A program made the translations under genes and the position numbers. 64,000 bases of DNA from Xiphophorus maculatus (lineage: Eukaryota; Chordata; Actinopteri; Cyprinodontiformes; Poeciliidae): contig NC_036447.1 of the NCBI RefSeq assembly GCF_002775205.1, forward strand, positions 31,433,245 through 31,497,244, read 5' to 3'. Position 1 is the stretch's first letter. Every line of letters begins with the position of its first letter. Below the pieces are notes generated by a model, which was given only the letters and a program-made list of their open reading frames with translations, did no database searches and had not been told where the DNA came from. This document shows positions 21,501 through 24,500 of the stretch, in pieces.

Positions 21501-24500
21501 AAAATTGTCCAGCCTTTTTTGCTTTTTTTAAATGTTTTTTCCTCTCAACTGTCTTTTCTGTGCTCTTTCTCGGGCCTCAGGGTCTTCTCAGCCTACATTA
21601 AGGAGGTAGAAGAAAAGCCGGGCCCCACACCCTGGGGCAGCAAAATGCCATTTGGGGCCGTGCTAGCAGAGTTTGGAGGAGCAGGTCAGTATTTATGTCC
21701 TACTTCAGGCTAATTCAGTTGTTTGTTGAACTAAAAACACATCAGCAGGTTTTTATGCATTCGTTTCCTGCAGGTGGAGGAGGATGGGTCCACTCTGTCT
21801 CTTTCTCTGCCTCTGGGAACCGTCTGGCCTGGGTCAGCCATGACAGCACTGTCACTGTGGTAGACAGCTCTAAGACTGCCAGGTTTGTTGGTTTCTGTAC
21901 CTAAAGAATTTCACAATGCCATGAAATGAGAGTTTCTCTAAAACTCCCTAAATATCTTAATAATTTAAAAAAGTAGTTTTGAAATGTAAAATAAATTAAC
22001 ATACATCTTCAGAAATCTGAATGTATACTATCAGTAGGCTAAATATTTTTTTTAATAATCCCATTTGTTCATTAAGCCCCATGAGTAAATAAAAGTATAA
22101 GTGTGTGTAGCTATGTCTCTCTCAAAACTATTTCTAAAAGTTAAAAACAGAGAGAATTACTTGGCTCTGTTTTGTTTGTTTTTTTTAACTCGTAATCGGA
22201 TCCTTATTTCTGTGCAGTCAAAATTTGGAATAAAATATTTTCACAGGTCTATATAAGTCTTTAAAGAGGAAATGGGACTACTTTGCTGTAGCTGTACATT
22301 TTTATGTACTGTTTCATTTCTAACAATTATATGATGTTTTTTTTAATGCAATGTTAAAGTCACATGTTTCTGACAGAGGTAGGGTTTAATTTCATATTTT
22401 GCAATGATCAACAAGAGCACACTTGCTTGTTGCACATTGAAACATCTGGGGCCTCATGTATAAAAGAGTTTGCAGTTTTCACACTAAAACTTGGCGTACG
22501 GACAAATTTAGAAAAGTGCGGCACACAAAAAAAAAATTGGATGTATAAAGCCGTGCGCACGCACATACCTGCGCATCTCTCCTTTATACATCCTAATTTG
22601 CGGGAAATAGAGCGCAGCTGCTGGTCCGTCCTATTGCCCCCCATAAATATACCCGGAAGTCTGCCACCACGTGAAGTAATACCATGACAATGTCCTTGTT
22701 TGTAGCAGTATAAGTATTTATAATAATAATAATTATGTATTTCATTTAAAAGGTGCTTTCAGGGCACATAAGGTCACGTCACAAAAAATTTAAATAATAC
22801 ATTTTAATTTAAAGTCCAAATTAAAAACGTGCAAATTCCTGTTTGAATAACAGAGCGTTCAGCCGGGATTTAGAAACACACAGCTTGTCGGAGTCTCCCC
22901 CAGTCATGAACCCTCTTCCCTGGACAGGGACAGGGAAGAGGGTCATGAACCCTCTTCCCTGTCCCTTTCCCCCTCCCCCACCTGTGTGACGCAGCCAGCA
23001 AAGTACATAACTGACCACCCTATTGAGTGTTTGAGTGGGAATGTGGACATTTAATCTAGCTAGAGAAATCGTGCATAAGTTGAACATTTACAGAATACAG
23101 ATGCTTTCTATCCATAAAGGCACATTCACAAAGTGGGCGTGGCTCGGCTGAAGGATGACTGCAGTTGCACCAGTAACCCACGGCTCTTTCTTTAAGTTTT
23201 GCTCGGAGCTCCAGGATGATCAGTCTGGGTTAATCTAAATGCTAATAAACATCATCAACATTTCCCAGCAGATCAATATGATCTCTGAACACAGGCTCCC
23301 TCTGAATTCGTCCACTGGTCATGTTCCCCATCAGAGCCAAAGTGCTCTTCAATTACACAGCTCACCTTTGCACAGCTACTTATATACATGTGATTATACA
23401 CACCTTAATCACCTTAAAAATAATCAAACCTGTTGGGAGTTAATCTGCTGATCCAACCTTGCTTTCTTTTTTTAGTGAAAATGAAATTACTCCACAGATG
23501 CGTTTTATGCGCTTCAGCGCACAGAACAATTATATATTTACGAGGCAAAACCTGAGGAAATGTACTATTTACATTTGAGTGAGGTTTACACATCTTTTTA
23601 TTTTATTGTCTTTATTTTGTGTGCGTGTTAGCTTATTGTCTGAGGATAAATGTTGTTCAGTTTTATACTTTACAATTAAACAATAAAATATTAAAATCAT
23701 GAAAAATCATTGGGTTTGATGCCTCTTGGTCTAAATAACACTGAATATCGTCAGATTTCATTGTATTTAGGTGAGTTTTGACACTTTGTAGTTTATTATT
23801 GTCCACAGAAAAAGTTTGCATGGCTGCCACACATTTTCACGGCAGGTCAATTAACGCCACGTTAATTTTTATACATGCCGACTTGCACGTAAAATATGGT
23901 TCCACACATTTTTTGTGCGTTCGGACACTTTATACAAGAGGCCCCACGTCCCTGTTATGAGATAAGAACACAGAAGCCAAGTTATGTGCTTTTGGACAAC
24001 TGTATTACATGTAACATAGTTCATTGTGAAGTAAATTTGTATGTAGATAAAAACCGACTCTGCTTGCTTGTTGTAGCATGCTGTGGAAGGCGCGTTGACG
24101 TCTCCATGAGTCTCTCAACTGAGCTCTGATCTGCAGTTTTTAAAACCATATCAAACATGTCTTATCTTGAAATGTTACTGTGAGACCTTAGCTTTTGCAC
24201 ATCTTAAGCAGTTTTGATTGCAACAAGAGCAATCCAGGATTAGGTGGAAAAAGTTACTTTGTCTTTAAGTCCTGATCTGGCCTTGTTCTGTATCTGTTTT
24301 CTTTCGCAAGCAAGTTCTTTGTTGATTGATTTACCTTTTGTGAACCCTTCAATACTCTCATCAGTCTGTTGACATCAGTGTTTTTTTGTTTTACTGTTGC
24401 CACGCTCTCACCTGGTATCAGCCTTCTGCACGTTTCGCAGTCTTTCCAATGATGGTGGTGGGAGTGATATGATTTGCAGAAAATCTTTAGGCAGAATAGA

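Follow-up and report, generated by a model that had tools for sequence, protein, structure and literature searches.

The closest described system is the single-copy Pack-TIR. Tan et al. 2021 (PMC8277862) reported 370 Pack-TIRs in 100 animal genomes, and the term 'Pack-TIR' was found only in that paper in our limited literature search. The excerpted text of PMC8277862 argues that single-copy Pack-TIRs derive mostly from transposition-independent gap filling, with nearby DNA serving as the filler in repair inside a DNA transposon. According to the same excerpts, the parent is no more than 15 kb away in 160 of 281, and less than 5 kb away in the majority of those; microhomology occurs at one or both breakpoints in 67.6% (median 2 bp), and the breakpoints are skewed to the element interior. 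A filter that retains fillers of 80-120% of the parental length was used there for recent, clean cases. The excerpts also contain one self-gene case in the other direction, in which an intronic region of H2BC15 was copied into the 3' UTR of its own gene. For the transposon itself, the nearest comparison is offered by the NuwaI group of PHIS (PIF/Harbinger-like) elements, which in the excerpted text of PMC4482050 have CWG duplications and GGG ends, and whose hosts there include 12 bony fish.

The locus that we compare with these systems lies in a 64,000-nucleotide stretch of the Xiphophorus maculatus genome (NC_036447.1, positions 31,433,245 to 31,497,244), hereafter the window, and comprises a gene, a transposon in one of its introns, and a short sequence present in both the transposon and the presumed 3' UTR of the gene:

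18537..26172, + strand: arpc1a coding span, with the conserved peptides in order and approximate exon boundaries
22448..23945, + strand: non-autonomous DNA transposon copy in an arpc1a intron, with inverted ends (GGGGCCTCATGTATAAA / TTTATACAAGAGGCCCC) and dispersed relatives
22894..23033, + strand: filler (captured segment) of 140 bp, a copy of 26224-26324 with a 39-bp insert, missing in 26/26 family copies that span the site
26224..26324, + strand: parental copy in the presumed arpc1a 3' UTR, beginning 52 nt past the stop codon 26170-26172
26344..26461, + strand: poly(A)-signal-like motifs downstream of the parental copy (ATTAAA at 26344, AATAAA at 26456; motif scan)

Peptides expected of arpc1a were found at 18537, 18884, 20211, 21350, 21582, 21782, 24798, 24940, 25968 and 26134. 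A single exon was compared with solved structures, and this exon (24940-25134) matched ARPC1A chains with an E-value of 2.9e-34 and ARPC1B chains with one of 7.8e-15. The name arpc1a, already given in the initial annotation, is thus upheld by an exon that fits ARPC1A far better than ARPC1B, and on its predicted peptides the gene is arpc1a. The recipient intron extends from approximately 21883 to 24794, and is 'intron 7' provided that exon 1 is non-coding. The second copy does begin 52 bases past the arpc1a stop codon, as annotated, and its position and the motifs at 26344 and 26456 allow 26224-26324 to be presumed 3' UTR. Further along the same strand, exons at window 34590-36106 are 76-84% similar to the arpc1a exons; they probably form a paralog beside arpc1a, for which we infer the name arpc1b.

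The two copies, 22894-23033 and 26224-26324, align over 101 positions with three differences and a 39-base insert in the former. They share their start (TCTCCCCCAG, at 22894 and 26224) and their end (GAGTGTTTG, at 23033 and 26324). Once the 39 bases are removed, the mismatches between the UTR and the filler are C/G at 26238, C/T at 26274, within a CpG, and G/A at 26280. BLASTN of one region against the other gave a 92-bp match at 96.7% (E 5e-42) and a 14-bp exact piece, and together with realignment it reproduced the annotated coordinates, mismatches and insert. In a comparison of the whole window with itself, the filler/UTR pair (E 4.2e-37) was the second strongest match. The top match in that comparison joined an arpc1a exon to an exon of the second, related gene at 34.6-36.1 kb.

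We also considered a longer homologous tract of lower identity extending beyond the core. This was rejected, as the flank scores lay within the range of shuffled sequences: of 300 shuffles, 188 reached the score of the left 200-bp flanks and 54 that of the right ones, and the 40-bp flanks gave P values of 0.46 and 0.89. Over the flanks tested, the homology ends at the edges of the 101 positions.

When the genome to which the window belongs (101 contigs, 704.3 Mb) was searched with the 101-base query, two places only were found, both inside the window; this search skips very common words, and it recovered both known copies and no third. The initial annotation had named many dispersed copies genome-wide as the outcome that would count against it, and had also considered that both copies might come from an unrelated repeat. 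The two genome-wide matches led us to reject a dispersed-repeat origin, and the unrelated-repeat reading is further opposed by the absence of the segment from 26 of 26 family copies. Pattern scans of viral and of bacterial and archaeal contig collections for the core, the element ends and the subterminal motif gave no match, as expected there, and a literature text search for sequence strings of the region gave no relevant match.

The host element is 1,498 bp long and GGGGCCTC-ended, and its terminal repeats (22448-22464 and 23929-23945) differ at 1 position in 17. The intronic copy therefore lies, as originally described, within an element of about 1.5 kb with inverted ends. No second copy of the element was found inside the window. 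With the whole element as query, a first look at the genome yielded 505 candidates. Scores were obtained for 40 of them, and among these 40 the identity of the long 3' pieces was mostly 75-83%, with one at 94%. The closest relative among those scored, L004 (1501-2288), aligns over 774 bases with 20 mismatches, besides 25 gap positions, and lies 0.72 Mb from the focal element on the same contig. A (GACA)n run adjoins the point at which this relative is truncated on the 5' side.

In its ends and flanks the element resembles the NuwaI group as characterized in the excerpts of PMC4482050, of which it is a candidate member. Like those elements, it has terminal repeats that begin with GGG, and CWG (CAG or CTG) stands on both flanks in 17 of the 20 copies having both ends. 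These 20 were taken from loci L005-L031; of the 29 copies, 7 lacked an end, and L004 and L018 were excluded by hand. Unlike the NuwaI duplications, the flanking triplets are identical in only 10 of the 17, the other 7 pairing a left-hand CAG with a right-hand CTG; the focal element itself is flanked by CTG/CAC. A further difference from NuwaI is that no transposase could be linked to the arpc1a-intron element. The genome contains 49 DDE_Tnp_4 matches, and none of the 30 that were examined as a possible autonomous partner, with 1.5-kb flanks, aligned to the element ends. Four of these 30 stretches (L038, L039, L040 and L053) contain GGGGCCTC or its complement, with no paired opposite end. In L053, a lone GGGGCCTC follows CA at position 1818 near the DDE_Tnp_4 match, the opposite end being absent in the fetched stretch.

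The direction of the copying is indicated by the other members of the element family. The usual relatives align to the element query at 1-446 and 583-1498, thus without 22894-23029. We fetched 29 non-focal family copies. Three of them (L004, L026 and L029) do not reach across the capture site; the other 26 span it, and the filler is missing from every one of these. The commonest form of the empty site in the family is GTCAGAGAGTCCTTTGAGTGGG, whereas the focal element has GTCGGAGTC, the filler and then TTTGAGTGGG. The alignment of other GGGGCCTC element copies that the initial annotation had proposed as a check thus yields empty sites throughout. Given that every spanning copy is empty, the segment was inserted into the focal copy of the element, and the UTR is likely the source and the element the recipient in the one genome compared. 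The C-to-T difference in the CpG at 26274 is on the transposon copy, as expected were that copy the derived one.

One family copy, L021, carries an insert of its own near the same place. This is a different nested element of about 224 bp (approximately L021 1258-1481), which starts with CAGGGGTGGGCAATCC and lies some 38 bases beyond the capture site on the downstream side; the capture site itself, placed by eye in this copy with the other element nested just downstream, is empty.

The breakpoint is internal, at 33% of the element's length, and the element lost approximately 0-5 bp at capture. The right junction lies at the end of the filler:

23030..23033, + strand: junction TTTG, common to the UTR filler and the element, from the comparison of family copies

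At this site the family has TTTGA in 19 of 26 copies, ATTGA in 5 and a different sequence in 2. The right-junction microhomology is probably 4 bp (TTTG), given a parent element with TTTG, and would be 3 bp (TTG) if the parent element had ATTGA. The left-junction match is 0-2 bp: TC for a parent element with a single AG, the form of 5 of the 26 copies, and none (a blunt junction) for one with the commoner AGAG form. We simulated random UTR/element junctions with 200,000 draws each, using a reference element with three stand-in bases at the site. A match of at least 4 bp arose in 1.9% for one junction and on either of two sides in 3.9%, and one side of at least 4 bp together with at least 2 bp on the other arose in 0.6%. 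The right-junction match is therefore suggestive of microhomology, while the left one is uninformative alone.

The filler has an internal structure of its own, which lies in the segment that separates it from the UTR:

22922..22960, + strand: 39-bp insert, an inverted 22-bp copy and then a repeated 17-bp direct run, the exact placement being ambiguous

The inverted copy at 22922-22943 matches the complement of 26240-26261 at 21 of 22 positions, and 1,000 shuffles of the 22-mer gave a minimum of 5 mismatches. The filler can be decomposed into 28 bases forward, 22 bases from the opposite strand (with one mismatch) and a forward piece that resumes from an earlier point; the decomposition script admitted the C/G difference at 26238 in advance. 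At the position where C stands in the UTR, the two forward pieces agree in having G; this would result from a change in the UTR following one single event, or from a change in the filler that preceded a second one. The hairpin of the insert has a z-score of -3.91 as DNA and -3.80 as RNA. Template-switch mutations are a class in which a local inverted copy of the adjacent sequence is made before synthesis goes back to the original strand, and here an inverted copy of adjacent sequence stands between direct copies. Judged by this arrangement, the 39-bp insert is a strand-switch footprint. It is like the short-range template-switch mutations in the excerpts of Walker et al. 2021 (PMC7954356) in its local inverted copy and strand return, and unlike them in that it lies inside a filler and perhaps dates from the same repair event.

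When these properties are set against the excerpted text of PMC8277862, the single-copy Pack-TIR is the nearest described class. A non-TE filler is enclosed on both sides by a single TIR element that has both its ends; the filler is absent from the other element copies (26 of 26 spanning, 29 fetched); it is single-copy with a unique parent on the same chromosome (two places in 704 Mb); and the parent is near (3,190 bp), with short junction microhomology, an internal breakpoint (33%) and little loss of the element. Unlike the cases that pass the length filter, the arpc1a filler has a filler/parent ratio of 140/101 = 1.39, outside 80-120%, because of the 39-bp insert, without which the ratio is 101/101; the pipeline of PMC8277862 would probably have missed it. 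It further differs from the described Pack-TIRs in that arpc1a is both the parent and the host gene, and in that the filler holds an internal inverted strand-switch footprint.

Based on these results, we propose that a GGGGCCTC-ended non-autonomous DNA transposon was already resident in the arpc1a intron when a break occurred inside it, and that the break would have been repaired by copying 101 bases of the 3' UTR of the same gene, 3.2 kb downstream, in the same orientation. Synthesis would have moved onto and off the UTR template via short matches of 0-2 bp on the left and probably 4 bp (TTTG) on the right. The polymerase may have switched strand and returned, either during that event or afterwards, leaving the 22-bp inverted copy and the 17-bp repeat. 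The outcome would be a single-copy Pack-TIR without evident function that is removed with the intron. We regard this account as a whole, from the resident element through UTR-templated repair to the strand switch, as very probable. The break and the repair enzyme, the capture in place after insertion of the element, and the joint origin of capture and hairpin are the steps that we infer; for microhomology with templated inserts, polymerase theta-type end joining would be a candidate enzyme, as far as the excerpted sources indicate. The initial annotation had proposed capture of host sequence by a DNA transposon, a proposal that gains support from the two genomic places of the query and the 26 empty spanning copies. 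This 'capture' would be best understood as a repair patch inside a resident element rather than as a pick-up at the time of transposition.

A pick-up during transposition elsewhere, with the element landing in arpc1a afterwards, could have proceeded by transposition-dependent gap repair or as in the FoSTeST model (PMC8277862). It deserves consideration in that the element belongs to a dispersed family that was mobile in the past, and that a relative with 20 mismatches in 774 bases lies 0.72 Mb off on the same contig. However, the filler is found nowhere else in its own genome, and in a genome of 704 Mb it is very unlikely to have landed by chance no more than 3.2 kb from the place it came from. 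Because the source and the recipient are only 3,190 bp apart, repair in place is favoured, and we consider the transposition route improbable. The divergences do not add to this argument: the filler differs from the UTR at 3/101 positions (3.0%; 0.6-8.4%) and the element from L004 at 20/774 (2.6%; 1.6-4.0%), values so alike (Fisher test, P 0.74) that the dates do not show capture after insertion. That the template was arpc1a RNA or cDNA rather than genomic DNA is, in our estimation, similarly improbable; an RNA intermediate was also among the options given in the initial annotation. The filler comes from one exon in sense orientation, which an mRNA template would likewise yield, but no poly(A) tract adjoins it; a one-exon segment could show no spliced junction, and DNA and RNA templates predict an identical sequence here.

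The copy count by itself, with two copies only, gives no direction, so that the transposon copy might have come first and then seeded the UTR. Its origin in the element would then be unexplained, since 26 of 26 spanning family copies are without the segment, and both the 39-bp insert and the CpG change are in the element copy, which makes this direction highly improbable. An assembly error or chance similarity is more doubtful still, to the point of being negligible: the E-value of 5e-42 opposes chance, and a misplaced read is unlikely given the 3 mismatches and the 39 bp that set the copies apart, and their different flanks. The repair patch in a resident element remains the best explanation of the locus.

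Concerning function, a motif scan found no ATTAAA or AATAAA within the filler, and Rfam gave no match at gathering scores across the whole window. From its sequence, the filler probably has no function, and we regard it as a putative neutral scar. We also considered that the capture and the hairpin came from one repair event with serial strand switches, and that the sense duplicate with its stable 18-22-bp hairpin in the pre-mRNA affects arpc1a expression. This combination, drawn from sequence features, seems very unlikely; if true, the effect on arpc1a could be exerted, for example, via splicing, small-RNA production or competition for 3' UTR-binding factors.

Elsewhere in the window, inverted repeat pairs at 31534-31659/44852-44975 (87%) and 27275-27337/27820-27881 (90%) are probably other mobile elements. 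An ARAGORN call of tRNA-Gln at 7923-8018, with no Rfam match at the gathering score, is probably a false call.

The class of event has already been published, and the novelty of this locus is modest, consisting in the same-gene source and the embedded inverted copy; the arpc1a case illustrates a known type of event cleanly. Its value lies in an unusually complete snapshot of a capture from one genome, which shows the source and the recipient together with 26 empty-site relatives, the match at a junction and the footprint of a strand switch. The short distance between source and recipient suggests that a gene can furnish the repair patch for a transposon within one of its introns.
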